Notes: a model not told the origin generated them from the sequence alone. Shown: positions 2,588-47,365, counted from the stretch's first letter. The stretch: 47,365 nt of DNA from Nitrospirota bacterium (GCA_015233895.1 JADFXG010000022.1:1-47365), one strand, 5' to 3'. Numbers and translations: made by a program.

Positions 2588-3859
2588 TTGAAAGCTATTC
2601 CAAGAATAATGCCAACGCTTCCGGCAGCAGATCTCTTTAATATATTCAGGAATCTATCGAGGGACATTCCGGAGGAAGACGCCCAAAAAATAGTGTCTGG
2701 ATTTGAAACTAAATTTGCAGAGCGCTACGGTTTGCCCAGAGGTGTTGCCACAAGCAGGGCAAGGATGGCGTTATATTATTTATTGAAAAACATGGGGCTT
2801 AAACCAAACGGTGAGGTATTGATTTCTGCAATCCATGTTGCCGACTTTATAAATATAATTGCGCTTGCCGGTTTCAAACCGGTGGTGGTTGACCTTGCGC
2901 ATAACTCATATAACGTGGACTGCGACGATTTGGAAAGAAAGATTACAAAAAACAGTGTGCTCTTTCTGATGACATACTTATCGGGATATGTGCCCGATAT
3001 GGAAAGAATCGTGGAAATATCACAAAAGTACAAACTGCCGTTTATTGAGGATTGCTCACAGGCGTTGGATTCTTACTATAAAGGACAGAGGCTAGGAACA
3101 TTCGGGGTGGCGGCTATTTTTAGCTTAAGCTTATTTAAATCCGTAACCACTTTATTTGGAGGAATGCTTATCAGCCGCAATGAAACACTACTATCGGACA
3201 TACGACAAGATGTAAAATCACTGAAACCGCCTCCGAAACAACTTTTAGTTAATGAAGCAATTAAAAACGTTGTATTAAAAATAGTGATCAGCAATCCATT
3301 GTTCAGTGCCGTGGTATTTCCCCTTATGAGGTGGACACTGCCCGTGGCTGATTATTTTTCAAAATATCAGAAATCAAATAAACAGGTGTTCTTAAGAGAT
3401 AAAATACCGGATGAATTTCTTGTCCAATACACATGGCAGCAGGCAATAACTGGTTTAAGCCAGTTGAAAACTCTTGATAAAAGGGAGAGGAAAAGAAAAG
3501 AAAATGCCCTATATTTATATGATAATATAGTTTCGGACCGTAACGTTGCCGTCCCTGCACTGGTAAAAGACAGCGAGAATTCATTCTGGTTGTTTCCAGT
3601 TATCGTTAACTCTCCCAATGAATTCAGAGCGTTTCTAGCTAAGACTGCAATAGACAGTTCAAAGTTTCTCCTTAGCCTTCTTTGTGAGGAAAAGGTATTT
3701 TCACACTTCAAATTCAACAGCGATAATGCAAGGGAATTAAAACAAAAAACTGTTTTCGTCCCGATGTACAGCGTCCTTTCAAAGGCACAGACAGAAAGAA
3801 TAGCTCAGGCAATAAAAAAATATCAGGCAATAAACGGCTCCAATAACGATAACAGATGA
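2588..3859 (+). CDS. DegT/DnrJ/EryC1/StrS-family PLP aminotransferase
   Basis: This is a fold-type I, PLP-dependent sugar aminotransferase-like protein of 423 residues. The expected landmarks are present: the PLP-contacting acidic residue in the IEDCSQ motif (D155) and the probable Schiff-base lysine K184 in SLFKSVTTLFGG. The start is a TTG behind a purine-rich GGGGGCAGGA sequence, because no ATG lies near the ribosome binding site. It overlaps the next gene by four bases (ATGA), so it is translationally coupled to a radical SAM enzyme. Likely role: making an aminosugar or acting on a keto-sugar in the plasmid's glycan pathway. It is longer and more divergent than the second DegT protein at 15022, so the two probably act on different intermediates. 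Confidence 0.85.
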   Translation: MKAIPRIMPTLPAADLFNIFRNLSRDIPEEDAQKIVSGFETKFAERYGLPRGVATSRARMALYYLLKNMGLKPNGEVLISAIHVADFINIIALAGFKPVVVDLAHNSYNVDCDDLERKITKNSVLFLMTYLSGYVPDMERIVEISQKYKLPFIEDCSQALDSYYKGQRLGTFGVAAIFSLSLFKSVTTLFGGMLISRNETLLSDIRQDVKSLKPPPKQLLVNEAIKNVVLKIVISNPLFSAVVFPLMRWTLPVADYFSKYQKSNKQVFLRDKIPDEFLVQYTWQQAITGLSQLKTLDKRERKRKENALYLYDNIVSDRNVAVPALVKDSENSFWLFPVIVNSPNEFRAFLAKTAIDSSKFLLSLLCEEKVFSHFKFNSDNARELKQKTVFVPMYSVLSKAQTERIAQAIKKYQAINGSNNDNR

Positions 3860-4989
3860 GAAAAGGGCAGGATTTTTTAAAAAAAGTTTTCCCCTTCGAT
3901 ATAGATATAACGGCTGTTAGGTTTGGTTTTGCATCTTTTATTAATGTTCTTTATACAAGGCTTTTCAATATTGCCTCTCCAAAGGCCCCACCCTTACTGA
4001 CATGGATTACAACGTTTGATTGCAATGCCTATTGTAAATTTTGTGCCACCCATAAGGTAAAACATAGTTGTCAGGAATCTGTCCCATACGAGAAGTTAAT
4101 TAAAACAGCCCATGAAATAGGCAAAGCAGGTACATTTGTCGTAGGCTTCAGCGGCGGTGAGGTGTTGATGTGCCACTATCTCTTTGATGTAATCAAAGTG
4201 TTACATTCCTATGGCGTCAAGACCTATATTGTTACAAACGGCTTGCTTCTCAGAGAAAAAGCTGACGAGATACTACAAAGCAAGGTAGAGCTTGTTGTTG
4301 TCAGCATCGATAGCAGCACTGCAGAGGAACATGATAATTTCAGGGGTTTTCCCGGCCTCTATGAAAAATTGCTGGATGGTATACAATACATCAGAAGTAA
4401 ACGGGAAAACTCTGTTCCATTAATAAAAGCCACAACGATATTAAATAAAAAAAATATTCCTAAAATAAATGTTATCCTCGATGATCTAAAAGCCTTCACA
4501 GACACTCAGTCACTCCAACCTATAGTAACCGGTTACCATGAAAACAGCCCTCACAGCAAAGCAGAAGAAGGGATAACCTCTTTCATGTTTCAACCTGAAG
4601 ACAGGCCGCAACTTCAACATTATATAAATGAACTAATAAAAAACCATCCTGATTTTAACAGTTATTATTTCAGGCAAATTCCAACATATTACTTCGACCG
4701 TGAAAGGCTTCTTGAAATTCAATGCTGGTCTCCGTTTTTCAGGATGATGATTATGCCAAACGGCGATGTAGTTCACTGCCTTGCTAACCCAAAGTACCCC
4801 CCAATCGGTAATATTAAAGATTCCACAATTATGGAAATATGGAACAGCAGAGAAATGTTCAGACAACGCGAGGAAATACGTTTACATAAAAACAACTGTA
4901 TCTGTTGGACCCAGGACGCCTCTTTCAATCAACTTATACATAACATCCCTCTATTTAACAGAATTCCGGTCTTTAAAAAACACAAGTAG
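3856..4989 (+). CDS. Radical SAM protein with SPASM/twitch-like tail
   Basis: The CxxxCxxC cluster that binds the SAM-cleaving [4Fe-4S] centre is at C56, C60 and C63 (CNAYCKFC), followed by a GGE-type motif (SGGEVL) and the alternating strands of the partial TIM barrel. The C-terminal third has further cysteines (around the QCWSPF, HCLAN and NNCICW stretches) and the IMPNGDVVHC pattern, typical of an auxiliary-cluster SPASM or twitch domain. Such enzymes act on peptides, sugars or cofactors; the substrate here is unknown. It is coupled to the DegT aminotransferase by an ATGA overlap, so sugar chemistry (deoxygenation or epimerisation) is a reasonable guess. It has no leader peptide gene beside it, which argues against a RiPP role. 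Confidence 0.85.
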   Translation: MRKGQDFLKKVFPFDIDITAVRFGFASFINVLYTRLFNIASPKAPPLLTWITTFDCNAYCKFCATHKVKHSCQESVPYEKLIKTAHEIGKAGTFVVGFSGGEVLMCHYLFDVIKVLHSYGVKTYIVTNGLLLREKADEILQSKVELVVVSIDSSTAEEHDNFRGFPGLYEKLLDGIQYIRSKRENSVPLIKATTILNKKNIPKINVILDDLKAFTDTQSLQPIVTGYHENSPHSKAEEGITSFMFQPEDRPQLQHYINELIKNHPDFNSYYFRQIPTYYFDRERLLEIQCWSPFFRMMIMPNGDVVHCLANPKYPPIGNIKDSTIMEIWNSREMFRQREEIRLHKNNCICWTQDASFNQLIHNIPLFNRIPVFKKHK

Positions 4990-5365: not shown

Positions 5366-6640
5366 ATGTCCGAGAGCTATGATAAGAACCTTATAACAAA
5401 ATCTAACAGACTTGTTGAAGCCCGCTATAAATTAACAGTGAATGAACAAAAATTAATTCTGTGGCTAATATCTAAGATAGAGCCAGACGATGAGGACTTT
5501 AAAATTTATACGTTAAAGATAACTGAATTTATGGACATGTTGGGGATTGAACATAAGGGAACTTATGCTGAGGTGCAAGAAATAACCTATAGGCTCATGG
5601 AAAAAGTTTTACAAATAAAAGAACCGGCTGGATTATTGCAGATAGCGTGGTTTTCATCGGCACAGTATTTTGATGGGAAAGGTTATGTTGAACTGGAATT
5701 TTCACCAAAATTAAAACCGTATCTCTTAGGACTGAAGGAACGATTTTTAAGTTACCGGCTACAAAATGTCATTCAATTAAAAAGCTCATATTCTATTAGA
5801 ATTTACGAGTTGTTAAAGCAATATGAAAAAATTGGTACACGGATTTTCAAAATATCCGAATTTAAAAAAATGTTAGGGTTGGGCAATGAATATCCGTTAT
5901 ATAGTCACTTTAAGGAAAGGGTTATAACTGTTGCTCAAAAAGAGCTTAAAGTCCAAACTGACATTAGTTTTGAGTTTAGAGAGATTAAACTTGCCCGGAA
6001 AGTAACTGAAATAGAGTTTTTAATTATCAAAAATGAAAAGGTGATCAGAAATGGTAAGCAAGTGTCTGCCGATCCTATAGAAAAGACCATATTCAAATTA
6101 GAATATTATGAGAAAAATCTTTTTGATAAATTGCAGAAATATTACCAATTATCTCGTGAGCAAGCTCATGATGTCGTAATACGTATTTTGCCACAAATGG
6201 ATAAAGAGTATATAGAGGGATTGCTAAATTACTGTTCTGGTTACTATGAAAAAAAGAAAAAGGAAAATATTAATGTCCACTTAGGAGCAATCACATGGAA
6301 AGCCTTACAAGAAGGATGGCAACCACAACAGAGCTTATTTGACATTGAAAGTAAAGAGAAAGAACATGCAGAACTGAAAAGACAAGCAGAGACCAAACGT
6401 AAAGAAAAAGAAAAACACGATAAAGAAATCCGCATCAAAGAACAAATTTACGAAGCTATTGAAAATCTTACACCAGAAGATAAATCAGAAATAGAGGAGG
6501 AATTTCCAAAATGGCTAAAAATAAATAATCCCTATAATTATAATAATAAATATCAACCGGACATGAGCTATGACATAATAAAGACAAGAATAAAAATAGA
6601 TTTATATCATTTTATGAGAGAAAAATTAATACACGAATGA
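5366..6640 (+). CDS. rep: Rep_3-family replication initiator protein
   Basis: The 424-residue protein opens with the hallmark of the Rep_3/RepB initiator family: a KSNRLVEARYKLTVNEQKL segment near residue 12, followed by two winged-helix domains (about 10-120 and 125-230; IRIYELLKQYEKIG and FKKMLGLG are characteristic). It binds the adjacent iterons and opens the origin. Residues about 330-385 are rich in Lys and Glu with heptad character, probably a coiled coil, so the protein is longer than the usual 250-330 residues of the family. The ATG at 5366 lies five bases after the -10 box with no ribosome binding site, so the mRNA is predicted to be leaderless. It is probably autoregulated through the operator. 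Confidence 0.93.
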   Translation: MSESYDKNLITKSNRLVEARYKLTVNEQKLILWLISKIEPDDEDFKIYTLKITEFMDMLGIEHKGTYAEVQEITYRLMEKVLQIKEPAGLLQIAWFSSAQYFDGKGYVELEFSPKLKPYLLGLKERFLSYRLQNVIQLKSSYSIRIYELLKQYEKIGTRIFKISEFKKMLGLGNEYPLYSHFKERVITVAQKELKVQTDISFEFREIKLARKVTEIEFLIIKNEKVIRNGKQVSADPIEKTIFKLEYYEKNLFDKLQKYYQLSREQAHDVVIRILPQMDKEYIEGLLNYCSGYYEKKKKENINVHLGAITWKALQEGWQPQQSLFDIESKEKEHAELKRQAETKRKEKEKHDKEIRIKEQIYEAIENLTPEDKSEIEEEFPKWLKINNPYNYNNKYQPDMSYDIIKTRIKIDLYHFMREKLIHE

Positions 6641-7772: not shown

Positions 7773-9269
7773 CTATACGGCAATAAATTTTTTTAGTAGA
7801 TTAAAAATGTGGTACTCAAGAAGAAAACCTGGAAACTGTCTGTTAATTCTAAAAGAAATAACAGGCTTATAAAGTGATTTTGTTACTTTATAAATGAATC
7901 TGATTTTTAGGCTGTAATTTTCTAAGTATGATTCCCAGTTACTTATTGTATATGCGGCCATAGAAAGCATACTAATATAATTGTCATAATCTTCTGTGTA
8001 CCACGGCATAAATATCCTTGACTCCTGGTCAAGGTTACTCCACTGTGCGGGTGTCGAGGGCGGTTTAAACCCGTGCTCTATGGCCAGATCGTATAGTTTT
8101 GAGCCTGGATAAGGAATAAACCTGCCAGGACTGAAGATAACACAATTAGGATTTTCCTCGGAAAGGCGCTTCATAAAAAGAGCGGTTTCTTTCAGGTCAT
8201 CTATCGTTTCAGTAGGGATGCCGCATAGGATGTTATACATAGGAGTCAGCCGTGGATATTTTGCAAGCATTCTGTTGATTTCCAGAGATTGTTCAACAGT
8301 AATTCCTTTTTTCATAAGATTTAGTATCTTTTGTGAACCGCTTTCAACTCCGATATGAATGTAACGTACCCCTACCTCCTCAAGTAATTTAAAATCAACA
8401 TCCGACATCTTTTTTACCTCATTTACCCTTATACCTCTTACGCCTATTTCCACTTTAAGCTTTCTCTTAAGCATCTCTTTTGCTATAGAGGAAAAATGGC
8501 TTACATCCACAAAGGTATCATCATCGTAGAAATATATGAAGTTAACCTTATAATTTTTAACAAGGTGCTCGATGTGGTTTACAACATCGGTGGCGGAATA
8601 AGGAACCCATTTCTGTTTGTTGTCTTTGTACCACACAGGGGAGATGCAAAAGGCGCAGTTGTACGGACATCCGCAACTGGTATAAATTGGAAACACTCGT
8701 TTCTTATTGCTCTTAAAATACTCCTCCAGAAACGGCTCTACCAATTTATAAGGTAGTTTTTTATAGTCCATGAACTCAAACGTATTGTTTATCTGCCCTA
8801 TAACTAATTCGTTGTTTTTTTTGAAACACAGGCCATCTATGCTATGTAGATTGTCTGAGCCTGCAATGAGCGTCTCAACCAGTTTTGCAAACGACTCAGA
8901 GCCAAAACCACGAATACAGAAGTCAACTACATCAAGTTTTAATGTCTCCTCGGGCAGGACAGTGGGATAAGGCCCCCCCCATACAACTTGTATATTTTTA
9001 ACACCTTTTACTATTTTCGATATTGCATAAGCCCCAGCAACAGGTATTCCACTCATTACGGAAATACCTACAAGGAAAATGTCCTCAAACTCGATTTTCT
9101 TTAAAAGTATTTCCTTCCAGTTATGTTCTATCCTGCAGTCCAAAATCTCTATCTCTATATCCGGCATTTCAGAGACCTTCGAGGCTACATATACGAGACT
9201 TATGGGTACGTTGATAACATAGGAGCCTACAAAGCCAAGCTCGGGATAGATCAGAAGTACTTTCTTCAT
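7773..9269 (-). CDS. B12-binding-type radical SAM protein
   Basis: The 498-residue protein has an N-terminal Rossmann-like domain (1-150) of the cobalamin-binding type (LIYPELGFVGS start, VWGGPYPT and GFGSESF motifs) and a radical SAM core with C201, C205 and C208 (CGCPYNCAFC). The DxHxxG lower-ligand motif is not visible, as in many BchE/HpnJ-like class B proteins, so base-off cobalamin binding by a different mode or loss of B12 binding are both possible. Family members methylate unactivated carbons or rearrange rings; the substrate here is unknown. Translation begins at an ATG with AAGAGG upstream. The gene is divergent from the FkbM gene. Confidence 0.88.
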   Translation of the reverse strand: MKKVLLIYPELGFVGSYVINVPISLVYVASKVSEMPDIEIEILDCRIEHNWKEILLKKIEFEDIFLVGISVMSGIPVAGAYAISKIVKGVKNIQVVWGGPYPTVLPEETLKLDVVDFCIRGFGSESFAKLVETLIAGSDNLHSIDGLCFKKNNELVIGQINNTFEFMDYKKLPYKLVEPFLEEYFKSNKKRVFPIYTSCGCPYNCAFCISPVWYKDNKQKWVPYSATDVVNHIEHLVKNYKVNFIYFYDDDTFVDVSHFSSIAKEMLKRKLKVEIGVRGIRVNEVKKMSDVDFKLLEEVGVRYIHIGVESGSQKILNLMKKGITVEQSLEINRMLAKYPRLTPMYNILCGIPTETIDDLKETALFMKRLSEENPNCVIFSPGRFIPYPGSKLYDLAIEHGFKPPSTPAQWSNLDQESRIFMPWYTEDYDNYISMLSMAAYTISNWESYLENYSLKIRFIYKVTKSLYKPVISFRINRQFPGFLLEYHIFNLLKKFIAV

Positions 9270-11638: not shown

Positions 11639-12556
11639 TTATGAGTCAAAGGTTTTCCTTGCAAAGAAACTGAAAGGCATTTCAGATGTTTTTAATACAT
11701 CGTCAAAGCCGTCTTTTTTTATTTCGGTAATAAGGATACACCTGTCTTTACACATAACAACAACTCCGTTTGAGTGTTTTAACGTGATGTTTCCTGGGAC
11801 GCTGACTATCTTTCTTTCCAATAATACAGTTTTCCAGAGGACTATTTTTGTGCCGTTAAGGAAAGTAAATGCTCCCGGTAAGCCCTTTCCATTAAGTCCC
11901 CTTACAAGGTTGTGAACATCTGAGGCGCTCATTCTGTCCCAGAGTATTCTGCCGTCATCAGGGTAGCGTTTACAGTAGTATGTACCCTCTTGCGGGTCTT
12001 GTTTTAGTGCTCTAACCGTGTTGGAGGCAATCTGTGTTACGGCATTAACGAGGATTTCCTGGAATATATCCAGCGTTTTGTTTATTATCTCTCCAGCTGT
12101 TTCATCAGGAGCTATTGGATACAGTCTTTGCTCGATTATATCCCCCGTGTCTATTCCTTCATCAACATAGAGTACGGCACAACCGCCTGAGAGTTCACCG
12201 TTTATCACTTGCCAGTTTATTGGGGAACCGCCGCGGTACTCCGGCAGCTTTCCACCGTGAAGGTTTATTGTCCCGCGTGTTGGAATTGCCAGGATATCTT
12301 TTTTGAGGATTTTTGTGTATCCGGAAAGTATCATTAGATCTAAGGACAATGACCTCATATCGCTTATAAATTCTATACTATTTACGTTCTGTGGTACGTA
12401 GGTGGATATGCCCAACTGTTGAGCTGTGCTAAAGACGGAGTCATTTCCCATTTTATTTGGTTCAACCACCACGGCTGCGGGCTTAAAACCGGCCTCACAC
12501 AGGCTCAACAAGCACTTAACACCACGCAGGCCATTACCGAAATACGCAATATTCAT
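11639..12556 (-). CDS. ArnA-type sugar N-formyltransferase
   Basis: The 305-residue protein is a 10-formyltetrahydrofolate-dependent formyltransferase. The catalytic triad is visible as N98 and H100 in INLHGGKLPEYRGG and D136 in DEGIDTGDI, equivalent to N102, H104 and D140 of ArnA. The C-terminal domain has YPDDGRILWDRMSASDVHNLVRG, matching the ArnA subdomain motif (PDD...W....LHNMVRA) better than methionyl-tRNA formyltransferase. It lacks the ArnA decarboxylase half. Predicted role: N-formylation of a nucleotide-linked aminosugar made by a DegT aminotransferase. Together with the ArnD-like deformylase at 46419 it suggests a protect-and-deprotect cycle. It lies upstream of parA on the same strand, away from the other sugar genes. 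Confidence 0.88.
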   Translation of the reverse strand: MNIAYFGNGLRGVKCLLSLCEAGFKPAAVVVEPNKMGNDSVFSTAQQLGISTYVPQNVNSIEFISDMRSLSLDLMILSGYTKILKKDILAIPTRGTINLHGGKLPEYRGGSPINWQVINGELSGGCAVLYVDEGIDTGDIIEQRLYPIAPDETAGEIINKTLDIFQEILVNAVTQIASNTVRALKQDPQEGTYYCKRYPDDGRILWDRMSASDVHNLVRGLNGKGLPGAFTFLNGTKIVLWKTVLLERKIVSVPGNITLKHSNGVVVMCKDRCILITEIKKDGFDDVLKTSEMPFSFFARKTFDS

Positions 12557-12663
12557 CTCTATCTTATCTTAACTCAAATGTAAATGTTATATAAACACTG
12601 CAGATAAAAGGAGAGTATCATACACTTTAACTCCTATATAGTGCTTTAGTAAAAATAAACACC

Positions 12664-12692
12664 TTGCACAAATTAAAATGATTGGGTATGAT
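12664..12692 (+). promoter_or_regulatory. Probable promoter of the FAD oxidoreductase gene
   Basis: TTGCAC (12664-12669), a 17-base spacer and TATGAT (12687-12692), about 58 bases ahead of the ATG. Confidence 0.45.
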
Positions 12693-12750
12693 AATGAAAT
12701 TGATGTACGATGACGTGTTGTTTAGTACATAACCCTAAGGCACAATAACG

Positions 12751-13854
12751 ATGGACAGCGTTAAGATAACAATAATAGGCAGCGGGGTCATAGGGTTGTC
12801 TATTGCTGCGGAGTTGTCTAAATACCACGCAGATATCTTGCTTGTGGAAAGGCACGGAAAGCAGGGGCAGGAGACAAGCAGCCGTAGCAGCGAGGTTATC
12901 CATAGTGGCATATACTACAAAAATAACTCTCTTAAGGCTAAACTCTGTGTTGAAGGGGCTGCGCTTTTGTATGAGTACTGTGAAAAAAACTCCGTGGCTC
13001 ACTTAAAGACAGGGAAACTGATAGTGGCAGTAACTAAAGAGGAACGAGAGGACTTAGAGTCGCTGTTTAAACACGGTACAGATGAAAACGGTGTTAAAAA
13101 CCTTCGGCTTATTGATGCAGCAGAAGCCGCTAAAATTGATCCATGCATTAAGGCTGCCGCCGCCATACATTCCCCCGACACCGGCATTGTTGATTCCCAC
13201 TCTCTGATGAGTCGTCTAAGCACTGAGGCTGCCGCAAAAGGTGTTGTTTTTTCATTTAATACGGAAATCAATTTTATTGAAAAAAAAACTCCCGGCGGCT
13301 ACATCTTAGGTGTAAAGGACAGCGATTATAGGTTTTTCTCGCACATTGTGATAAATGCCTCAGGGCTAAGTTCAGATCGTGTGGCCTCCATGGCCGGCAT
13401 TGACGTAGATGAGGCAGGGTACAGATTAAGTTATTGTAAAGGCTCGTATTTTACATACTCTGGAACCCCCCCGCCGTGTAGAATGCTGGTATATCCGCTG
13501 CCTGAAAGACAGCTTAAGGGATTGGGAATTCATGCAACGGTGGATATGGCTGGCAGACTGCGCTTTGGTCCCGACACCGAGGATGTTGATGAAATTGACT
13601 ACAGGGTGGATGCAGGAAAGGGACAGATGTTTTTTGAAAGCGCAAGCAAATACATTAAAAACCTTAAGCGAGATGCTCTTGCTGCCGATATGGCAGGAGT
13701 TCGCCCTAAACTAAAGGGCGGAGATTTTATTATTACCCACGAACATCTGCGTGGACTTGAGGGTTTTATAAATTTGATAGGAATAGAGTCCCCGGGTCTT
13801 ACCGCCTGTATCTCCATTGCCCGCATGGTAAGCGCCATGGTGAGGGACGTATAA
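12751..13854 (+). CDS. FAD-dependent oxidoreductase, LhgO/DAO family
   Basis: The 367-residue flavoprotein has an N-terminal dinucleotide-binding fold with GSGVIG at residues 10-15 and an acidic residue closing the second strand (LLVERHG). The segment ETSSRSSEVIHSGIYYKNNSLKA is characteristic of L-2-hydroxyglutarate oxidase (LhgO) relatives in the D-amino-acid-oxidase superfamily. It should oxidise a small hydroxy or amino acid with FAD. It may recycle 2-hydroxyglutarate, or it may prepare an acyl or sugar intermediate; neighbours do not settle this. AAGG lies upstream of the ATG, and the gene leads the long plus-strand run to 27 kb. Confidence 0.85.
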   Translation: MDSVKITIIGSGVIGLSIAAELSKYHADILLVERHGKQGQETSSRSSEVIHSGIYYKNNSLKAKLCVEGAALLYEYCEKNSVAHLKTGKLIVAVTKEEREDLESLFKHGTDENGVKNLRLIDAAEAAKIDPCIKAAAAIHSPDTGIVDSHSLMSRLSTEAAAKGVVFSFNTEINFIEKKTPGGYILGVKDSDYRFFSHIVINASGLSSDRVASMAGIDVDEAGYRLSYCKGSYFTYSGTPPPCRMLVYPLPERQLKGLGIHATVDMAGRLRFGPDTEDVDEIDYRVDAGKGQMFFESASKYIKNLKRDALAADMAGVRPKLKGGDFIITHEHLRGLEGFINLIGIESPGLTACISIARMVSAMVRDV

Positions 13855-13980
13855 GAGTGTTTTTCAGCAGATTGCCCATATAAACGCAGATGAAAAAAAC
13901 CAATCTGTGAAAATCAGCGGCTGAATCCTTAAAAATTCAATCAAACATCTTTTGTGCGACATATAATAAGTGAAAACTCC

Positions 13981-14010
13981 TTGACTTCACAGATAAAATT
14001 GCAATATAAT
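13981..14010 (+). promoter_or_regulatory. Promoter of the epimerase-aminotransferase-GT2 operon
   Basis: TTGACT (13981-13986), an 18-base spacer and a perfect TATAAT (14005-14010). Transcription should start near 14017, after an in-frame TTG at 14015. This supports the ATG at 14039 as the real start of the next gene. Confidence 0.7.
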
Positions 14011-14038
14011 TATTTTGCTCATTAAAGCAACCAAGAAA

Positions 14039-15025
14039 ATGGATGATAAAGGGTGTAATAATGTTTTAATAACCGGAGGGGCTGGTTTTATTGGCTCTTA
14101 CGTGTGTAAGTTGATCCTGGGGCTTGGCTACCAGCCGGTGGTGCTGGATGCCTTCATACAGTACATCTCCCCGTTTGAAAGCAGCTATCAGAAGTATCTT
14201 GAATACAGGTTTAAGGACACTAAAAGCAGGATAATATTTGAGCGCGGCGATACCAGGGATAAAAACGACGTAAGAAGGTTAATGTCCCTCTATAAGCCGC
14301 AGTATATAATACATCTGGCGGCACTTCCGATAGCCGACCTTAGCTACACCCATCCCCAGGAGGCAATAAGCAGCATAATAAACGCTACCGTCAACATTCT
14401 GGACACTATAAATGAGCATAACTTTGTTAAAAGATTTGTCTATATATCGTCAAGCATGGTATATGGGGATTTTAAGGAGATTCCTGCCCCTGAGGACCAT
14501 CCTAAGAGCCCAAAAGATATCTATGGCGGGACAAAACTTGCCGGCGAAATTCTGACAGAGACCTACAGCCGCCGCTTTGGTATAAAATACACGATAATAA
14601 GGCCATCTGCTGTCTATGGCCCCACGGATGTTAACCGGCGGGTAAGCCAGGTGTTTATCGAAAACGCTATGAAAGGCGAAAAACTCATCGTTCACGGCGG
14701 AGGGGAAAACATTTTGGATTTCACGTATGTCGAGGACATTGCCCAGGGGATAGTTAAGGCCACATTTTCACCGGGCGGAGAAAATCAAATCTTTAATATA
14801 ACCAGAGGGCAAGGTCGTTCCCTGTTAGAGTATGCCGAGCTTCTAAGAAAATATTTTCCGAAGCTTGAGATACAAACGAAGCCGTTTATAGTTTACAGGC
14901 CTAAGAGGGGAGCTCTTTCTATAAAAAAAGCGCAGGAGTTAACCGGTTACTCTCCCATGTATTGTCTTGAGGATGGACTGGATCACTATATAGATTTTAT
15001 GAGAGAGCTTGAGGATTGTAAGTGA
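14039..15025 (+). CDS. NAD-dependent epimerase/dehydratase (extended SDR)
   Basis: This 328-residue extended short-chain dehydrogenase acts on nucleotide sugars. It has the NAD-binding GGAGFIGS (residues 13-20), the active-site serine stretch YISSSMVYGD and the catalytic YGGTK tyrosine/lysine motif. It resembles UDP-sugar 4-epimerases and related 4,6-dehydratases; sequence alone does not choose between these, and it does not look like the ArnA decarboxylase domain. I chose the ATG at 14039 because an in-frame TTG at 14015 precedes the predicted transcription start. It overlaps the next gene by four bases (GTGA), so it probably supplies the keto-sugar for that aminotransferase. Confidence 0.9.
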   Translation: MDDKGCNNVLITGGAGFIGSYVCKLILGLGYQPVVLDAFIQYISPFESSYQKYLEYRFKDTKSRIIFERGDTRDKNDVRRLMSLYKPQYIIHLAALPIADLSYTHPQEAISSIINATVNILDTINEHNFVKRFVYISSSMVYGDFKEIPAPEDHPKSPKDIYGGTKLAGEILTETYSRRFGIKYTIIRPSAVYGPTDVNRRVSQVFIENAMKGEKLIVHGGGENILDFTYVEDIAQGIVKATFSPGGENQIFNITRGQGRSLLEYAELLRKYFPKLEIQTKPFIVYRPKRGALSIKKAQELTGYSPMYCLEDGLDHYIDFMRELEDCK

Positions 15026-16146
15026 GCCATATTTCGCTTTGCAGGGCGCTTATCGAGGATGAGGAGCTGCGGGCGGTGGAGGCTGTATTAAAAAGCGGGT
15101 GGCTCACTCATGGCCCTAAAAACACCGAATTTGAAACTCTGTTTGCTTCATACTTAGGTGTAAAACACGCCATTGCAATGAACTCCTGCACATCGGCACT
15201 GTTTTTGGCCATAGCGGCAAATAACATAAAGGGAGATGTTCTGCTTCCCTCCTTTACCTTTGTTGCCTCGGCAAATGCCGTGGTCACAGCAGGCGCAAGG
15301 CCTATTTTTGTGGATATCTCCTATGACGACTGCAACATTGACCCGTATTTGCTGGAAAATGCGCTTACTCCGCAAACAGAGGCACTAATGGTTGTACATT
15401 ATGCCGGCCAGTGCTGTGATATGAAGACAATTTCGGAATTTGTCAAAAAGCATAAATTGGTTCTGATAGAGGATTCGGCAGAAACAATAGGTGGCACTTA
15501 TGAGGGCAAAATGAGTGGCAGCTGGGGTATCGGCTGTTTTTCCTTTTTTCCCACAAAAAATATAACAACAGGCGAGGGTGGGATGTTTACCACAAATGAT
15601 GATGTACTGGCTGAGCATGTCCGGGCTCTCATTGGACATGGGATAAAGAAAACCACTGCAGAGCGGGTCTCAGAGGGCAGGGCTTGGTACAGGGAGGCCA
15701 GCTATCCCGGGTATAATTTCAGGTTAAGCAATATTTTGGCGGCTCTTGGCGTGGAACAGATGAAAAAACTGGACAGGATGAACGCCTTAAGAAGGCAGCA
15801 CAGCGCATATCTTATGGAAAAATTAAAGGACGTTTCTGAGATATCCCTTCCTGTGGAAAAACCGGGTCGTCTGCACGTGTATCAGATGTTTACTATAAAG
15901 GTGAAAAGAATAGGTATGAGGGATAGGCTTGTGCGGTATTTGAAAGAGCGGGAGATAGAAGCCTCAGTGCACTTTGACCCTCCAGCACATCTCCATAGTG
16001 CATATAAAGACATGTGTAAAGCCAAACTTCCGGTAACTGAGGCTGTCTCTTCAAGCATAGTAACCCTGCCCATGTTTCCACAGTTGACTGTTGCAGAGCT
16101 TGATACAATCGCTGGAGCGATAAAGGACTATTTTAGTGGTGGATAA
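15022..16146 (+). CDS. DegT-family nucleotide-sugar aminotransferase, ArnB/PseC-like
   Basis: The 374-residue PLP enzyme has all landmarks of sugar aminotransferases of the ArnB/PseC/DesI type: SGWLTHGPK near the N-terminus, the PLP-phosphate loop NSCTSALFLA (54-63), the aspartate D151 in LIEDSAE, and the Schiff-base lysine K179 in FFPTKNITTGEGG. It transfers an amino group, normally from glutamate, to a 3- or 4-keto nucleotide sugar. It starts with a GTG overlapping the epimerase stop and overlaps the GT2 gene by 11 bases. The order epimerase, aminotransferase, polyprenyl-phosphate glycosyltransferase is consistent with making an aminosugar and loading it onto a lipid carrier. Confidence 0.92.
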   Translation: MSHISLCRALIEDEELRAVEAVLKSGWLTHGPKNTEFETLFASYLGVKHAIAMNSCTSALFLAIAANNIKGDVLLPSFTFVASANAVVTAGARPIFVDISYDDCNIDPYLLENALTPQTEALMVVHYAGQCCDMKTISEFVKKHKLVLIEDSAETIGGTYEGKMSGSWGIGCFSFFPTKNITTGEGGMFTTNDDVLAEHVRALIGHGIKKTTAERVSEGRAWYREASYPGYNFRLSNILAALGVEQMKKLDRMNALRRQHSAYLMEKLKDVSEISLPVEKPGRLHVYQMFTIKVKRIGMRDRLVRYLKEREIEASVHFDPPAHLHSAYKDMCKAKLPVTEAVSSSIVTLPMFPQLTVAELDTIAGAIKDYFSGG

Positions 16147-17059
16147 GTCTTTGAATAAGGTTGTTGTTTTTATTCCTGCTTATAACGAGGAGGAAACGAT
16201 AGCCTTTGCCATAGATAAAGTATGTGAGCTGTATCCTGAAAGTGTAACTGCAGAGAAAAATTATTTTGTTGAAATATTGGTTGTAAACGATGGCTCTGTT
16301 GACAAAACAGAGGAAATAGCAGAATCAAAAGGAGTAAGGGTGGTTTCCCATCCCACAAATATGGGACTTGGTGCGGCAACTCGAATAGCTATGATGACAG
16401 CTTATGAGATGGGGGCTGATGTTGCAGTTAAACTCGACGCAGATCTGCAGCACGACCCTGCTGATATAGAGAAAGTAGTTATGCCCATCCTGTTTGGTAA
16501 GGCCGATATATGCTGGGGATCGAGATTTGCCGGCAAAATTCACTATAAGATGCCGATAATCAGACGGTTAGGAAACATGTTTTTTACATGGCTTATGAAT
16601 CAGCTGACTCCTTATGGTATTTCGGATGCACAGACTGGGCTTATGGCTTACGGCAAACGTTATTTGGCAGTGTTTGAGCTCTTTGGAAGCTACAACCCGC
16701 CTCAGCAGCTACTGATAGATGCTAGCAATAAGTTTATGAAGTATGCGGAGGTTCCGGTTGTGTTTTATGAAAGGAAAACTGGCAGATCGTTTGTCAGTTT
16801 AAGATACCCTTTTTATGTGTTTATAAATATTTTGCGCATTATGATTTACGGTAGTCCACTGAAGTTGTTTACAGCCATTGGTTCTGTTATGGTTATTTTT
16901 TCTATTATATATTTTATAGCAAGTACTATTTTTGAAAAATACTTAATGAATTTTCCAATTCTTTTAGTAAACAACCTTTCCCTTGCAACCTTAATTGTCG
17001 GTTTACAGTGTTTCTTTTTTGGCATACTGGCCGATCTCTTAATTAAAAGACGAAGGTGA
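16136..17059 (+). CDS. GT2 glycosyltransferase, polyprenyl-phosphate (DPM1/ArnC/GtrB) type
   Basis: The 307-residue protein has a GT-A fold with PAYNEEE (14-20), NDGSVDKT and the metal/donor-binding DADLQHDP (101-108), followed by two transmembrane segments (about 242-265 and 277-301) and a basic RRR end. This size and the two C-terminal membrane helices are those of ArnC and GtrB, which move a sugar from a nucleotide to undecaprenyl phosphate at the inner face of the cytoplasmic membrane. Translation starts at tandem GTG codons inside the end of the aminotransferase gene. It is the candidate for loading the formylated aminosugar on the lipid carrier. Confidence 0.88.
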   Translation: MVDKSLNKVVVFIPAYNEEETIAFAIDKVCELYPESVTAEKNYFVEILVVNDGSVDKTEEIAESKGVRVVSHPTNMGLGAATRIAMMTAYEMGADVAVKLDADLQHDPADIEKVVMPILFGKADICWGSRFAGKIHYKMPIIRRLGNMFFTWLMNQLTPYGISDAQTGLMAYGKRYLAVFELFGSYNPPQQLLIDASNKFMKYAEVPVVFYERKTGRSFVSLRYPFYVFINILRIMIYGSPLKLFTAIGSVMVIFSIIYFIASTIFEKYLMNFPILLVNNLSLATLIVGLQCFFFGILADLLIKRRR

Positions 17060-17072
17060 AGACACTTAGCAG

Positions 17073-18089
17073 ATGACAATAAAATCTTTTATAAAGATGT
17101 TCAGGCATTTTTTAAATTTGAAACCTACAAGTGGACAGATAATCAATGCAATGAAGTATTCATCGCATTATTTCACCAATTCTTTTCCATACTATTTGAA
17201 TTACAATCCTATCAGCGTAGGCTTTTATATTACGTATAAGTGTAACATTAAATGCCCTCACTGCTTTAGCACTGCTATAAACAAGAAAGAGTATCTTCAG
17301 GAAACGATGTCTTTGGAGGAGTTTGAAAGCATCGTAACCCATAGAAACCTTATAGATACCTTCAGAGTGTCGTTTGTTGGAGGGGAGCCTCTTTTGCATC
17401 CTGATTTGTTCAAGATGATCGAATTATGTACAAGGCATCAAAAGTTAACCATGTTTCCATCTAACGGCCTTGTTGTCAATGAACGGCTGGATGAGTTTAA
17501 AAAAACCTCTCTTACAACAATACAGATAAGTTTATATGACAATTATATTGAAAAACAGATGAAAAATGCCGCTCTGATAAGAAAAGCAAATCCAGGCATC
17601 GAGGTCTCTCTATCCAGAATTGTGACGAAAGAAAGGGAGTCGTATTTATTTATGGAAGAGGTTATAAAGATGGCAAAAGGCCTTGGTCTGGAAAATATAT
17701 GTTTTCAAAACTTTGTAGCAAAAGACAAAACCCATTCCCATCTATCAATTTACGAGGAGGATGAGGATGTATTGCAGTATCTGAAGGAGATAAAGTCGAA
17801 ATATGGACGGGAGTTTAATATATTGTTTCCGGCTCCACTAAGTAAGAATGCCGGATGGCGGTTTTGCTACGACTTCTATACAGTTGTATTTGTGAGAAAG
17901 GGGGGAGTAATAACGCCGTGCAGCACTGTAGTGCCGCCGTATAAGATGCCTCAGACCATATATGATGATAATTTCTGGAATACTAAATCTTTCTTAGACC
18001 TCAGAAAAAACCATAACAGCACACCTCCATTTGACTCTTTGTGTGACTTCTGTTATAAAAGTGCCCGCTACACAAGAGCTTTTATATAA
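17073..18089 (+). CDS. Radical SAM protein with SPASM-like tail
   Basis: The 338-residue protein has a CxxxCxxC motif at C57, C61 and C64 (CNIKCPHC), a VGGEPLLHPD motif, and a C-terminal cysteine set (around GGVITPCST and SLCDFCYK) that should hold an auxiliary iron-sulfur cluster. It follows the GT2 gene by 13 bases and belongs to the same operon. The reaction is unknown; redox-neutral sugar or amino acid modification is possible. No RiPP precursor is evident nearby. Confidence 0.85.
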   Translation: MTIKSFIKMFRHFLNLKPTSGQIINAMKYSSHYFTNSFPYYLNYNPISVGFYITYKCNIKCPHCFSTAINKKEYLQETMSLEEFESIVTHRNLIDTFRVSFVGGEPLLHPDLFKMIELCTRHQKLTMFPSNGLVVNERLDEFKKTSLTTIQISLYDNYIEKQMKNAALIRKANPGIEVSLSRIVTKERESYLFMEEVIKMAKGLGLENICFQNFVAKDKTHSHLSIYEEDEDVLQYLKEIKSKYGREFNILFPAPLSKNAGWRFCYDFYTVVFVRKGGVITPCSTVVPPYKMPQTIYDDNFWNTKSFLDLRKNHNSTPPFDSLCDFCYKSARYTRAFI

Positions 18090-18176
18090 AGAGGCCTTGC
18101 CTTTTCATACGGTGTTTTATTAGACTACTGTGGAGACGTACTTTAGCGGAAAAGACGGAAAAACAGGAGGGACAGC

Positions 18177-20006
18177 ATGTTTGACAGTGTTTTAATCAAT
18201 GTACCTCTAAGCAGTCCGTTACATCCTCAGAGCAATATTATTTTTCTGAAAGGATTCCTAAAGCAAAACGGATACAAGACGAAAGTATATGACACCAACA
18301 TCAAATTCATTAATTGGTTTTTGTCGGATACTTTTCGCCACATAAAAGACATTGAGTACATGGATAATCCTGTCCGGATGTTAGCCCTGTACAACGAAAT
18401 AGAGAAGGCCCTGTACGACCGCAGCGCCAAATACAGGGGTTTTTCCTTAGATATTAGGAATGTTGGTATGGCCTACAACAGGACGGTTTTTGAGGAGGTC
18501 ATCAAAAGTGTAAGCGACAAAGAGGCCAACCCTTTCATTGAGTACTATAAGAAGTTTGTTTCTGAGGAATTAAAACCGCTATCTCCTAAAATTGTTGGTA
18601 TAGGTATAATTTTTCAGGATCAGATAATACCGGCCTTTACGCTGGCAAACATAGTGAGAGATGTGCTTCCAGATACAAAAATAGTCCTTGGCGGGCAAAT
18701 AATAACGCGCTGTTATGACACTATGACAGAAAGTGGCCTGCTTGACAGATTTTGGGACTATCTGGTTTTGTGGGACGGGGAATTGCCGCTGGCAGACATT
18801 CATAAAACTCTCCTTGATAAGCAACCTGCAGAAATGACCAACGTTATAGTAAAGAACCAATCAGGGGCGGTTATAGACAGACACTCATATGGTTTTGATC
18901 TGGATAGCCTTCAAAGGCCTGATATTGAGGACATAGATTATAATGAGTACCTGTTTCCGGAGATGTTGATCCCACTTCAAACGGCAAGAGGGTGTTATGG
19001 CACGTGTGAGTTTTGTGCGATTCCTTTTGGTTCCAACGCGGGGTTCAGGCAGCGGTCAGTGGAGCATTTGATTGAGGACATTTTGGCTATCCGGCAGCAT
19101 ACGGGCGAAAAATACGGAAAAGAGGCATTGTATTTTAAGTTTATGGATGACACCTCGGCCCCTGCTACTTTGACAAAATTATCAAAAGAAATAGAGATCA
19201 TGGGACTCAACGTGCAGTGGGAAACCTTTGTGCGCCTCGAAAAAGCGTTTGAAGACGAGGAACTAATGGCTCAACTGTACCGTGGGGGTTGCAGAAAACT
19301 TATGTGGGGACTTGAGACCACAGACCCTGTGATTCTTAAAGATATGAATAAGAAGATAACCCCTGTTCAGACAACAAAAGTTCTTAACTCCACGGCAAAG
19401 GCCGGAATAATGAACTTTGTTTTCGTACTGATAGGCTTCCCTGGTGAGACAGCGCAGCAAAGGGACGCTCTTGCGGATTATATTATAGCAAATCAGGATA
19501 TTCACGTCCTAACCATTGCCACTTTTGACTTGACAAAGGGCTCGAGAATTCAAGGTAATCTGACATATCCTAACACCTATGGCCTGGAGTTCAGCAGACC
19601 GGAGGGTTTTGAGGTTCGGCTGCCTTATACGGTAAACGGCGGCAACTGGAAAGAGGAAATGGTCAAAGAGGCCCAGCGGTTGCTGGTAAAAATAATAAGA
19701 GAGCGGCCAGATATAGGTTTTGTAAGCCTGTTTCCCGACCAGGTGCGCGGCATTCTGTGCAACAGACACGGAAACGACTGGGGGCGGACGTTTCTTTCTA
19801 GGTTTGGAGAGGACAACATCAGAGAATTGCTGCTTGCAACAGAGCGGTATGTGAGTGCATTTGAAGAGTGTCAGGAGATAGACCTGTCAATTTTGCCAGA
19901 GCCTCTGAAACGTGAACATTTGAGGACAAAAGAGGACATTAAGTCTATCTCCGATGCTATAAACAGGAGAAAGGAGTACCAGAGCAGGAGAGTTAACCAG
20001 CTTTGA
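18177..20006 (+). CDS. B12-binding-type radical SAM protein (609 aa)
   Basis: The N-terminal 240 residues form a B12-binding-like domain (VLINVPLSS start, IVLGGQII near residue 169, WDGELPL near 200), with an insertion of about 70 residues (55-125) that makes this the longest of the four B12-type proteins here. The radical SAM core has C273, C277 and C280 (RGCYGTCEFC), then LYFKFMDDTSAP and LMWGLETTDP. A strong GGAGG ribosome binding site lies about five bases before the ATG. The stop overlaps the start of the next gene (TTGA), so it is coupled to the unrecognised 406-aa protein. Its substrate is unknown. Confidence 0.88.
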   Translation: MFDSVLINVPLSSPLHPQSNIIFLKGFLKQNGYKTKVYDTNIKFINWFLSDTFRHIKDIEYMDNPVRMLALYNEIEKALYDRSAKYRGFSLDIRNVGMAYNRTVFEEVIKSVSDKEANPFIEYYKKFVSEELKPLSPKIVGIGIIFQDQIIPAFTLANIVRDVLPDTKIVLGGQIITRCYDTMTESGLLDRFWDYLVLWDGELPLADIHKTLLDKQPAEMTNVIVKNQSGAVIDRHSYGFDLDSLQRPDIEDIDYNEYLFPEMLIPLQTARGCYGTCEFCAIPFGSNAGFRQRSVEHLIEDILAIRQHTGEKYGKEALYFKFMDDTSAPATLTKLSKEIEIMGLNVQWETFVRLEKAFEDEELMAQLYRGGCRKLMWGLETTDPVILKDMNKKITPVQTTKVLNSTAKAGIMNFVFVLIGFPGETAQQRDALADYIIANQDIHVLTIATFDLTKGSRIQGNLTYPNTYGLEFSRPEGFEVRLPYTVNGGNWKEEMVKEAQRLLVKIIRERPDIGFVSLFPDQVRGILCNRHGNDWGRTFLSRFGEDNIRELLLATERYVSAFEECQEIDLSILPEPLKREHLRTKEDIKSISDAINRRKEYQSRRVNQL

Positions 20007-22767: not shown

Positions 22768-22998
22768 TTGTTAAACGAGACTATAAAGACAATATTTTTT
22801 GAAGTATTTGAGGTCTCCGGCATTACTATGGATACGGTGCTTAACGATATTGAGTCATGGGATTCGCTAAATCATATGAAACTTATTGCAGCGCTTGAGG
22901 GTGCTTTTTCAATAAGATTTACGTTTCCGGAGATAGTAAAACTCCTGTCTGTAAAAAAGATATATGAAACGATAGAAAGTAAAGGGGTCAGATTGTGA
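22768..22998 (+). CDS. Acyl/peptidyl carrier protein (module A)
   Basis: A 76-residue acidic carrier protein with the phosphopantetheine attachment serine in the motif SWDSLNHMKLIAALE (the Ser of WDSLNHM). The start is a TTG with AAGGA seven bases upstream. It overlaps the adenylating enzyme by four bases (GTGA). A stand-alone carrier with a stand-alone adenylation domain is the DltA/DltC-like arrangement for loading a single amino or carboxylic acid as a thioester. It is clearly related to the second carrier at 33830. No phosphopantetheinyl transferase is on the plasmid, so the host must supply it. Confidence 0.92.
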   Translation: MLNETIKTIFFEVFEVSGITMDTVLNDIESWDSLNHMKLIAALEGAFSIRFTFPEIVKLLSVKKIYETIESKGVRL

Positions 22999-24458
22999 AG
23001 TATTTTTATGAAAAAATGCTCCATATCTTTAAAACCTCCCCAGCAACCTTTTACACGTATTATGGCCAAACCTATAGTTACAAAGACTGTTACGCAAACA
23101 TGGTTAAAATAAACTCTGTGTTGAAACACTTTAAAAGAGCAAACATTGTTGTATATGGCAGAAAGAGTTTCAGTACATACTGCACCATCTTTTCAATATT
23201 CCTTTCTCAAAACATATGGGTGCCATTGTCTGAGCTTGCACCCCCGGCAAGAAATCTAAGCATGGCTGAGACAACAACCCCTGCCCTGATTCTCACAGAT
23301 GGCAGCGGTTTCCCAGGGGCAGTATCCGATTATGCCGCTAAGAGTAACATCCCTGTGGAAAACATAGAAGAGATTATACAACAAGAAGCTGGCGAGGAAT
23401 TCATTTTAGGAGATTTTTTAGCGGATGATCTTGCATACATTATGTTTACTTCGGGCTCTACCGGCATCCCTAAAGGTGTTCCTATGACAAATGCCAACTA
23501 CATTAATTTTGTGGAAAATGCACTGGAAATACTGCCCTTTGAAAAACACGAGGTGTTTTCCGACTACCACGGTTTTTCTTTTGATATTTCCATATTTTAT
23601 CTGTTTTGCGCTGTGTTTACGGAGAGTGCCTTTGCCCCTATTATAGAGAATGAGGAAAGGTTTTTTCCGTTAAACAACATAATAGAAAACAGGGTAACAG
23701 TGTGGTCATCTGTGCCATCGGTTATTACAAGAATTCAGATGATTCGCAAGGACGATATAATAGATACACCCATAAAAATAATGTTTTTGTGTGGGGAGCC
23801 TTTTAAACTAGACGTGCTTAAGTTCTGTTACAACAATCTGGGGATAAAGCACGTATATAATTTTTATGGTCTAACGGAGACCGGAGTGGAAAATTTCTAT
23901 CATAAATGCAGCATCAGCGATCTGCAAAAGTATGAAATGAAGGGGTTTGTACCGATTGGGAGACCACTTAAAGGCAACGATATTTTACTTGATGCTGATA
24001 ATCAGCTGCTTATAAGCGGTGTACAGGTAACACCTGGTTATCTCGGCAACAGGGAAACGGAACGCTTTGCTGAAATAGATGGAAAAAGATGGTACAAAAC
24101 CGGCGACATAGTACAGCGCTACGAGGATGTATATTTTTGTAAAGGGCGCATGGACTCGCAGTTAAAATTAGGCGGCTACAGGGTCGAACTAATGGACATA
24201 GAAACCCATATAAGGAGATATCCGGCAGTGACTGACGCCGTGTGTTTTGTCACCGGAACTGACAGTGAAACCCTTGTTGCGGCGGTTGAGTCGGGGATTT
24301 TGGACGAAAAGGGATTGAAAGCATATCTGAAGGAGTGTTTGCCGCCATATATGGTACCCAAAAAGTTATTTCAGCTTAATGAGTTTCCTAAAAATGCCAA
24401 TGGTAAAACAGACAGGAAAAAGATTAAATTGCTCTATACAGGAAGTGAGGATATTTGA
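22995..24458 (+). CDS. Stand-alone adenylation enzyme (amino-acid/acyl-AMP ligase)
   Basis: This 487-residue ANL-family enzyme has the adenylation core motifs in order: A3 FTSGSTGIPKG (151-161), A4 SFDIS (195-199), A5 NFYGLTETG, A7 WYKTGDIV, A8 GRMDSQLKLGGYRVEL and A10 NANGKTDRKKI with the catalytic lysine. The aspartate of the A4 motif, which in NRPS domains holds the alpha-amino group, is present, so an amino acid substrate is plausible. It starts with GTG overlapping the carrier gene and should load that carrier. Size and context resemble DltA. With the GNAT that follows, it may provide an aminoacyl group to be put on a sugar amine. Confidence 0.9.
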   Translation: MKYFYEKMLHIFKTSPATFYTYYGQTYSYKDCYANMVKINSVLKHFKRANIVVYGRKSFSTYCTIFSIFLSQNIWVPLSELAPPARNLSMAETTTPALILTDGSGFPGAVSDYAAKSNIPVENIEEIIQQEAGEEFILGDFLADDLAYIMFTSGSTGIPKGVPMTNANYINFVENALEILPFEKHEVFSDYHGFSFDISIFYLFCAVFTESAFAPIIENEERFFPLNNIIENRVTVWSSVPSVITRIQMIRKDDIIDTPIKIMFLCGEPFKLDVLKFCYNNLGIKHVYNFYGLTETGVENFYHKCSISDLQKYEMKGFVPIGRPLKGNDILLDADNQLLISGVQVTPGYLGNRETERFAEIDGKRWYKTGDIVQRYEDVYFCKGRMDSQLKLGGYRVELMDIETHIRRYPAVTDAVCFVTGTDSETLVAAVESGILDEKGLKAYLKECLPPYMVPKKLFQLNEFPKNANGKTDRKKIKLLYTGSEDI

Positions 24459-27239: not shown

Positions 27240-28319
27240 GTGGGTGAAATAAAAATGCCGTTACCGCAAGTGGACACGGAGGCATATAATAAAACGATAC
27301 AAGCCGGATTCAAAAAGTATCCGCAAAGAGAGGAAAATTATAAGAAGTATCTATTGAATCCCCGCAGTATAAATCTTGACTATATGCCGATAAAAATGGA
27401 CATAGAGCCCATAAACAGATGTAACTTACGGTGCACTATGTGTTTAATCCCAATGCTTGATAGCCAACAAGCAGCGGATGATCTCATGTTAGAGGACTTT
27501 AAACGCCTCATAGATGATCAATACGGTGTTTATGAAATAAAAATACAAGGCATCGGAGAGACATTTTTACATAAAGATTTTATAAAAATGGTTCAATTCG
27601 CTTCTGAAAAGTATATCTGGACACGTACTGCGACAAATGCCGTTATTATTGATCAGAACGAATACTATAAGGCGATTGTGGATGCTGGAATTGGCGAAAT
27701 GCTGCTTTCCATAGATGGCACAACAAAGGAAACATACGAAAAAATCAGGGTAAACTCTAATTTTGAACGAGTTGTGAAAAACGCAAAACTTATTAACAAT
27801 TACTGTAATAAGGTAGGTATAGATAAAACAAGGATGTGGGCAGTGCTTCAAAAGGAAAATTTTCACGAGCTATATAACTTTGTGCCATTTGCCAAAGAGC
27901 TTGGTTTTAAAAGATTAACACTGACAATAAATCTTGGTTTTGTTGGGGACAAAACACTACAAGAGATAAATCGCCCTAAAGATATTTCAAAGACGATAAC
28001 ACAGGATAACGTCGATAGGCTTTTGGAGCTTGCTGACAGGGCGGAAATCGATTTAACCTTTTGGTATATTACGACAAAATATACAAAAGACAATCTTTGT
28101 CCATGGCCATTTGAGAGGGCATTTATTTCTTGTGATAAATATATCTGTCCGTGCTGCACAATAACAAACACCAAGGCTGTCAATTTTGGGCAGGCGGAGC
28201 ACTTCTCCGAAATATGGTTTTCAGAGCTCTACCGTAACTTCAGGGCAGCTCATAAGGAGGGAAATATTCCCCATGAATGCAGATTTTGCTATAAAAAGGA
28301 TGGATTAACGGAAAAATGA
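27240..28319 (+). CDS. Radical SAM/SPASM protein
   Basis: The 359-residue protein has the core cysteines C61, C65 and C68 (CNLRCTMC). Its C-terminal SPASM-like region has cysteine pairs around KYICPCCTITN and ECRFCYKKDG, enough for one or two extra clusters. The start is a GTG with GAGGAG about seven bases upstream. It overlaps the UGM-like gene by four bases (ATGA), so it may act on the same sugar. Substrate unknown. Confidence 0.87.
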   Translation: MGEIKMPLPQVDTEAYNKTIQAGFKKYPQREENYKKYLLNPRSINLDYMPIKMDIEPINRCNLRCTMCLIPMLDSQQAADDLMLEDFKRLIDDQYGVYEIKIQGIGETFLHKDFIKMVQFASEKYIWTRTATNAVIIDQNEYYKAIVDAGIGEMLLSIDGTTKETYEKIRVNSNFERVVKNAKLINNYCNKVGIDKTRMWAVLQKENFHELYNFVPFAKELGFKRLTLTINLGFVGDKTLQEINRPKDISKTITQDNVDRLLELADRAEIDLTFWYITTKYTKDNLCPWPFERAFISCDKYICPCCTITNTKAVNFGQAEHFSEIWFSELYRNFRAAHKEGNIPHECRFCYKKDGLTEK

Positions 28320-44713: not shown

Positions 44714-44804
44714 TGCAAATGCAGAGACGCTCCAGTTCCAGATTTTAAGACGCTGAAGCATCCTTGATATGATTAGACAGTGTAAGACTAGTGCGCTCTT
44801 TGGC

Positions 44805-44832
44805 TTGACAAGCACCCCTTCTCTGTTACAAT
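44805..44832 (+). promoter_or_regulatory. Promoter of the radical SAM-ArnD operon
   Basis: A perfect TTGACA (44805-44810), a 16-base spacer and TACAAT (44827-44832) preceded by TGt, an extended -10. It lies about 57 bases before the GTG start at 44889. Confidence 0.7.
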
Positions 44833-44888
44833 ACATGATATTGGTCGCTTACGTTGCTAAATGTGCAATGACTCTGGAGGGTTGGTAA

Positions 44889-47357: not shown

Positions 47358-47365
47358 CTCTTTGA
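47239..47365. repeat. Right copy of 127-bp terminal direct repeat (circular-assembly overlap)
   Basis: Identical to bases 1-127. Trimming one copy gives a circle of about 47,238 bp in which the deacetylase stop (47355-47357) is followed 38 bases later by the ATG of the 772-aa membrane protein. Confidence 0.93.

Follow-up and report, generated by a model that had tools for sequence, protein, structure and literature searches.

An Arn-like amino-sugar pathway with a different entry is predicted on a Nitrospirota plasmid

We analyzed a contig of 47,365 nucleotides from a Nitrospirota bacterium (GCA_015233895.1, JADFXG010000022.1:1-47365), referred to below as the window, which is contig C22 of a host genome of 3.71 Mb in 65 contigs. 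The window probably encodes a pathway for an undecaprenyl-phosphate-linked 4-amino-4-deoxy sugar that resembles the Arn pathway of aminoarabinose (Ara4N) but has a different entry. As in the enteric polymyxin-resistance route, an amino sugar appears to be built, protected with a formyl group, attached to a lipid and unprotected. An initial annotation had described a split Arn-like pathway, and all the genes that it named (formyltransferase, aminotransferase, glycosyltransferase family 2 (GT2) protein, deformylase, short-chain dehydrogenase/reductase (SDR) and membrane proteins) were found where it had placed them. The genes at the core of the proposed pathway are:

11639-12556, minus strand: two-domain sugar N-formyltransferase of the ArnA-N/Fmt type (Formyl_trans_N and Formyl_trans_C; N98, H100, D136)
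12751-13854, plus strand: flavin adenine dinucleotide (FAD)-dependent oxidase, a predicted L-2-hydroxyglutarate oxidase and member of the conserved set
14015-15025, plus strand: extended SDR of the SSSMVYG family, a predicted NAD-dependent sugar-nucleotide C4-dehydrogenase; the start may be an ATG 24 bases downstream
15022-16146, plus strand: pyridoxal phosphate-dependent sugar aminotransferase of the ArnB/PseC type; 4-base overlap with the SDR gene
16136-17059, plus strand: GT2 polyprenyl-phosphate glycosyltransferase of the AglJ/DPMS/ArnC type; 11-base overlap with the aminotransferase gene
46419-47357, plus strand: ArnD-type deformylase; 3' end repeated at 1-119

Genes and steps of the proposed pathway

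From these genes we infer a coupled cycle of the first three steps, the sequence in which the steps occur, and the nature of the sugar, its carrier and its acceptor. The SDR would oxidize C4 of a nucleotide sugar, probably linked to uridine diphosphate (UDP), with bound NAD+ and no loss of carbon. The electrons of the resulting NADH would be taken by 2-oxoglutarate, yielding L-2-hydroxyglutarate as in Campylobacter Cj1427, and the FAD oxidase would turn L-2-hydroxyglutarate back to 2-oxoglutarate. The aminotransferase would use glutamate to convert the 4-ketone to a 4-amine, which the formyltransferase would cap. The GT2 enzyme may then transfer the formamido sugar to undecaprenyl phosphate, where the ArnD-type enzyme would take off the formyl group. 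Finally, a putative transporter and a membrane transferase may hand the sugar, now cationic, to a glycan or lipid of the cell surface. The Arn-like step order with an ArnD-type deformylase agrees with the initial annotation, but its proposal that GT-C-like membrane proteins complete that order is not supported.

Positions 1-127 of the window are identical to 47239-47365, and a Rep3 initiator, a resolvase and a ParA-type ATPase are encoded. The overlapping ends and these genes show that the window is a closed and complete plasmid, 47,238 bp in circumference once the 127-bp overlap is removed. The circularity also explains the duplication of the deformylase 3' end.

A second plasmid-like contig, of 44.2 kb, was found in a relative of the host from the same genus (G003). 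It encodes the formyltransferase, FAD oxidase, aminotransferase, GT2 enzyme and deformylase at 77%, 84%, 88%, 87% and 77% identity, respectively, and the two ends of its SDR gene lie at the two ends of the contig. The ratio of nonsynonymous to synonymous substitution rates is 0.07-0.16 across the five complete core genes (0.13 for the formyltransferase). Both plasmids also encode Rep, AsnB, an ABC exporter and a sulfotransferase (44-65% identity). Most of their other genes are not shared, and the radical S-adenosylmethionine (SAM), AMP-ligase, GLF and FkbH genes of the window have no match or only a distant match on the second plasmid. Retention of these genes on the second plasmid, with purifying selection acting on them, makes the set more than a chance association.

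The deformylase matches the ArnD family best by a wide margin, both in family score (143 bits versus 38 bits for the next family) and in comparison with solved structures (6e-28 versus 8e-5 for the next deacetylase), at a score below the ArnD equivalog cut-off of 382 bits. Residues D9 and D11, the HxxxH pair, H235 and the ArnD-type insertion align with canonical ArnD proteins. On the family and structure matches we rejected a chitin-type deacetylase, and the ArnD deformylase of the Arn pathway is predicted to be present. Among 230 genomes of the class, just two carry this gene, and a scan of viral contigs with the deformylase as query found no relatives.

The formyltransferase retains the catalytic N98, H100 and D136 reported by the initial annotation. 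Among solved structures, it matches ArnA (3.6e-35) and Fmt (1.6e-28), and the matches to Qui4N/Fuc3N-type enzymes (1e-15 or weaker) are so far below that to ArnA that this identity was rejected. By its own account, the initial annotation would have failed if the deformylase had grouped with chitin-type deacetylases, or the formyltransferase with Qui4N/Fuc3N formyltransferases; judged by sequence, neither occurred. The aminotransferase scores 318 bits against PseC and 297 bits against ArnB, both under the curated cut-offs, and its best solved structure is ArnB (2.7e-67). A second DegT-type aminotransferase, at 2588-3859, is very divergent and has 25% identity to the nearest row of the aminotransferase tree. 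The GT2 enzyme scores 108 bits against AglJ and 55 bits against ArnC, which ranks third by NCBIfam; its structure matches are DPM synthase and ArnC.

The SDR and the FAD oxidase at the proposed pathway entry

According to the initial annotation, the UDP-glucuronate decarboxylase half of ArnA is missing and a different SDR stands in its place. We assessed this with a published list of five residues that mark UDP-glucuronate decarboxylases (PMC12820599), namely ArnA-C Y398, E434, R460, N492 and R619. Each of four ArnA decarboxylases and two UXS-like proteins carries the full set of five. The window SDR carries none; it reads S/M/K/A/G at these positions and has the S/T-Y-K catalytic triad. The residues bear out the absence of the decarboxylase and rule out that the SDR is a divergent form of it. 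The SSSMVYG motif is common to all nine aligned members of the SDR family, and SDRs of this family adjoin or sit near a DegT aminotransferase in most of the loci examined. Three loci from Nitrospira-type genomes (L054, L055 and L057), read by eye, place an SSSMVYG SDR beside an aminotransferase, a NeuB-like synthase, an SpsF-like gene, and formyltransferase-like and polysaccharide-deacetylase-like proteins; these clusters are perhaps of a nonulosonate type with formyl chemistry.

The FAD oxidase was not named in the initial annotation, yet it belongs to the conserved gene set, and we regard it as the best clue to the first step of the pathway. Its best solved structure is 3dme (4e-75), which we take to be Bp3253. 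The substrate residues of Bp3253 are reported to be identical to those of L-2-hydroxyglutarate dehydrogenase in a structural study (PMC10726252). The window oxidase keeps all six L-2-hydroxyglutarate-binding residues (Ser88, His92, Tyr289, Leu299, His302 and Arg393 in Drosophila numbering), carried by the motifs SEVIH, Y-x9-LGIH and GVRP, with the arginine assigned via 3dme. The oxidase is not present in the two members of the genus without the pathway.

We examined the neighborhoods of oxidase orthologs (52-60% identity) from other members of the class at 11 loci. At about seven loci the ortholog lies in a nucleotide-sugar operon, and at four there are no obvious sugar genes nearby. Two loci hold HddC, HddA and a Cj1427-type SDR, and one of these SDRs matches 6vo6, presumably the Cj1427 structure, at 1e-117; the oxidase-adjacent SDRs of two further loci join the Cj1427 clade (100/99). 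One locus has a Gfo/Idh/MocA-aminotransferase-epimerase arrangement resembling WbpB-WbpE-WbpI. The oxidase-like genes of L087, L091, L085, L093 and L086 share their nucleotide-sugar operons with either SDRs of the Cj1427 clade or a WbpB-like gene.

These associations suggest that the SDR and the oxidase of the window are coupled, in a manner with two precedents. Cj1427 of Campylobacter jejuni oxidizes GDP-heptose at C4, and 2-oxoglutarate then resets the enzyme, yielding L-2-hydroxyglutarate (PMC10680097). The proposed entry would share with it an NAD-dependent C4 oxidation with transfer from NADH to 2-oxoglutarate, and the window SDR likewise has no acid at the decarboxylation/dehydration position; it differs in belonging to another SDR clade, in the recycling L-2-hydroxyglutarate oxidase encoded alongside, and in the amination and formyl protection that would come next. 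In the WbpB/WbpE system of Pseudomonas aeruginosa, 2-oxoglutarate is also the NADH sink of an amino-sugar pathway, but oxidation is at C3, the product is D-2-hydroxyglutarate and there is no formyl protection. WbpB belongs to the Gfo/Idh/MocA family, unlike the window SDR. O-antigen is reduced when the dehydrogenase that recycles the D-2-hydroxyglutarate from WbpB is lost (PMC8651671), which is a precedent for 2-hydroxyglutarate recycling with the other enantiomer.

Weighing the proposed pathway against alternatives and known systems

Several observations count against the pathway as proposed. The formyltransferase forms a long branch outside both the ArnA-N and the Fmt clades, and the aminotransferase falls outside the ArnB clade (100/98). 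No ArnT-type transferase over the cut-off was found in the host genome, where the best hit is 28 bits to a 994-amino-acid frame. The oxidase scores 209.8 bits against NCBIfam PRK11728, below the cut-off of 299 bits. The window SDR lies outside the Cj1427 clade, in a separate clade (100/99), and its closest solved structures are UDP-glucose 4-epimerase and other epimerase-type SDRs; its C4-dehydrogenase role is therefore based on association. Among Nitrospira-type genomes, the L-2-hydroxyglutarate oxidase is within ~10 kb of the SSSMVYG SDR in 4 of 10 and far from it or not found in the other six. The SDR clusters of these genomes, read by eye, also seem to hold Gfo/Idh/MocA-like genes, and for both reasons the support from this linkage is mixed. 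AlphaFold models built on two-row alignments were unusable, with predicted local distance difference test (pLDDT) values of 31 for the deformylase and 39 for the membrane protein at 158.

The initial annotation had suggested a sugar other than aminoarabinose. This was not established, because the host chromosome has a UXS-like gene and nucleoside diphosphate (NDP)-sugar dehydrogenases that could make UDP-xylose, which the SDR would oxidize to UDP-Ara4O before ordinary Arn chemistry to Ara4N. A UXS-like protein occurs in all four genus members, with the full decarboxylase signature in the two copies read completely; the aminotransferase and deformylase match Arn enzymes best among structures, and the oxidase would fit because this route also requires an NADH sink. 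We nevertheless think that Ara4N is an unlikely product, given that the aminotransferase and formyltransferase lie outside the Arn clades, that the host lacks an ArnT over the cut-off and that the canonical arn loci of relatives use a dedicated STSEVYG decarboxylase.

Rather less probable is that the SDR is a 4-epimerase or reductase, with the 4-keto sugar supplied by a chromosomal enzyme and the oxidase serving unrelated metabolism. The epimerase-type structures nearest to the SDR and the four oxidase loci without obvious sugar genes are consistent with this, but the conserved set holds no other dehydrogenase. Moreover, the SDR gene overlaps the aminotransferase gene, and SDRs of the same family adjoin DegT aminotransferases in other genomes and plasmids. 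A third alternative separates the ArnD-like enzyme from the formamido sugar and makes it a general deacetylase of the plasmid's surface glycan. This would fit a deformylase gene ~29 kb from the SDR-aminotransferase-GT2 block (~11.5 kb from the formyltransferase the other way round the circle) and a score well below the ArnD cut-off. It is quite improbable given that ArnD is by far the top family and structure, that the ArnD-type residues and insertion align throughout, and that the second plasmid, most of whose other cargo is different, has kept the deformylase with the rest of the set.

Returning to the pathway with its own C4-dehydrogenase entry, we favor a non-pentose sugar. Our fuller proposal is tentative: formyl protection and deprotection may act on a 4-amino-4-deoxy hexose or heptose, entered by a decarboxylation-free C4-dehydrogenase and served by a self-contained glutamate/2-oxoglutarate/L-2-hydroxyglutarate loop with the oxidase of the cassette.

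The split layout noted by the initial annotation is accurate but ordinary. In canonical arn loci of other Nitrospirota, the formyltransferase and an STSEVYG decarboxylase are encoded by two different genes that accompany arnB, arnC and arnD, with an arnT-like gene in several, and a Variovorax plasmid likewise keeps formyltransferase and decarboxylase apart; as a novelty, the split was therefore rejected. The window shares with such systems (pmrHFIJKLM; Variovorax sp. RA8 L073; Nitrospirota L032, L034, L036 and L037) an aminotransferase, a separate formyltransferase, a GT2 of the AglJ/DPMS/ArnC group and an ArnD-type deformylase, and would share the order of amination, protection, transfer and deprotection. 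It differs in having an SSSMVYG-family SDR and an FAD oxidase instead of a decarboxylase, in the tree positions of its aminotransferase and formyltransferase, neither of which joins an Arn clade, in the lack of an ArnT hit over the cut-off, and in the scatter of its genes over the plasmid. The NaxD-type enzymes of Francisella and Bordetella deprotect an amino sugar on undecaprenyl phosphate, as proposed here, but remove an N-acetyl group and belong to a different deacetylase family.

Neighboring genes and implications

Other features of the plasmid include its replication gene and the candidates for the last step:

158-2476, plus strand: large polytopic membrane protein, a putative acceptor transferase; adjoins the deformylase gene; no family match
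5366-6640, plus strand: Rep3 replication initiator, which marks the replicon as a plasmid
37436-39190, plus strand: ABC exporter, a candidate flippase; 44% identical copy on the second plasmid
40428-42863, minus strand: second polytopic membrane protein

The two polytopic proteins are 27% identical to each other, and no informative Pfam family was found for either, which leaves their assignment as the GT-C-like Arn transferase unsupported.

Eight radical SAM genes, three of them with B12-binding domains, lie within 3856-4989, 7773-9269, 17073-20006, 27240-28319, 35218-36327 and 43067-46370, and the second plasmid has its own, distinct radical SAM set. Genes at 22995-24458 and 30920-33852 for an adenylation enzyme, an FkbH-domain protein and a MaoC-SDR fusion suggest synthesis of an acyl or hydroxyacyl group and its transfer onto the glycan or product of the plasmid. 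The mutase-type genes differ between the plasmids, with a UDP-galactopyranose mutase fold at 28316-29422 in the window versus a reversibly glycosylated polypeptide at L015:6705-7808, and suggest furanose sugars in both.

A scan of genome contigs gave a sole match, Nitrospirae MAG (metagenome-assembled genome) nDJH6bin1, a same-genus relative of the host; a paper on magnetotactic bacteria (PMC7602337) mentions another genome obtained from the same series of samples. In the MAG with the 44.2-kb contig, a further 23.6 kb match the plasmid of the window at 99.9% identity (G003:C57; L029 and L030). A single host may thus carry two related Rep3 plasmids.

To our knowledge, Ara4N is the only sugar for which formyl protection on undecaprenyl phosphate has been established. 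A second sugar handled in this manner would mean that the protection trick is general. That an L-2-hydroxyglutarate oxidase recurs in operons for nucleotide sugars suggests what this enzyme may do in bacteria, namely sustain 2-oxoglutarate-coupled sugar dehydrogenases.

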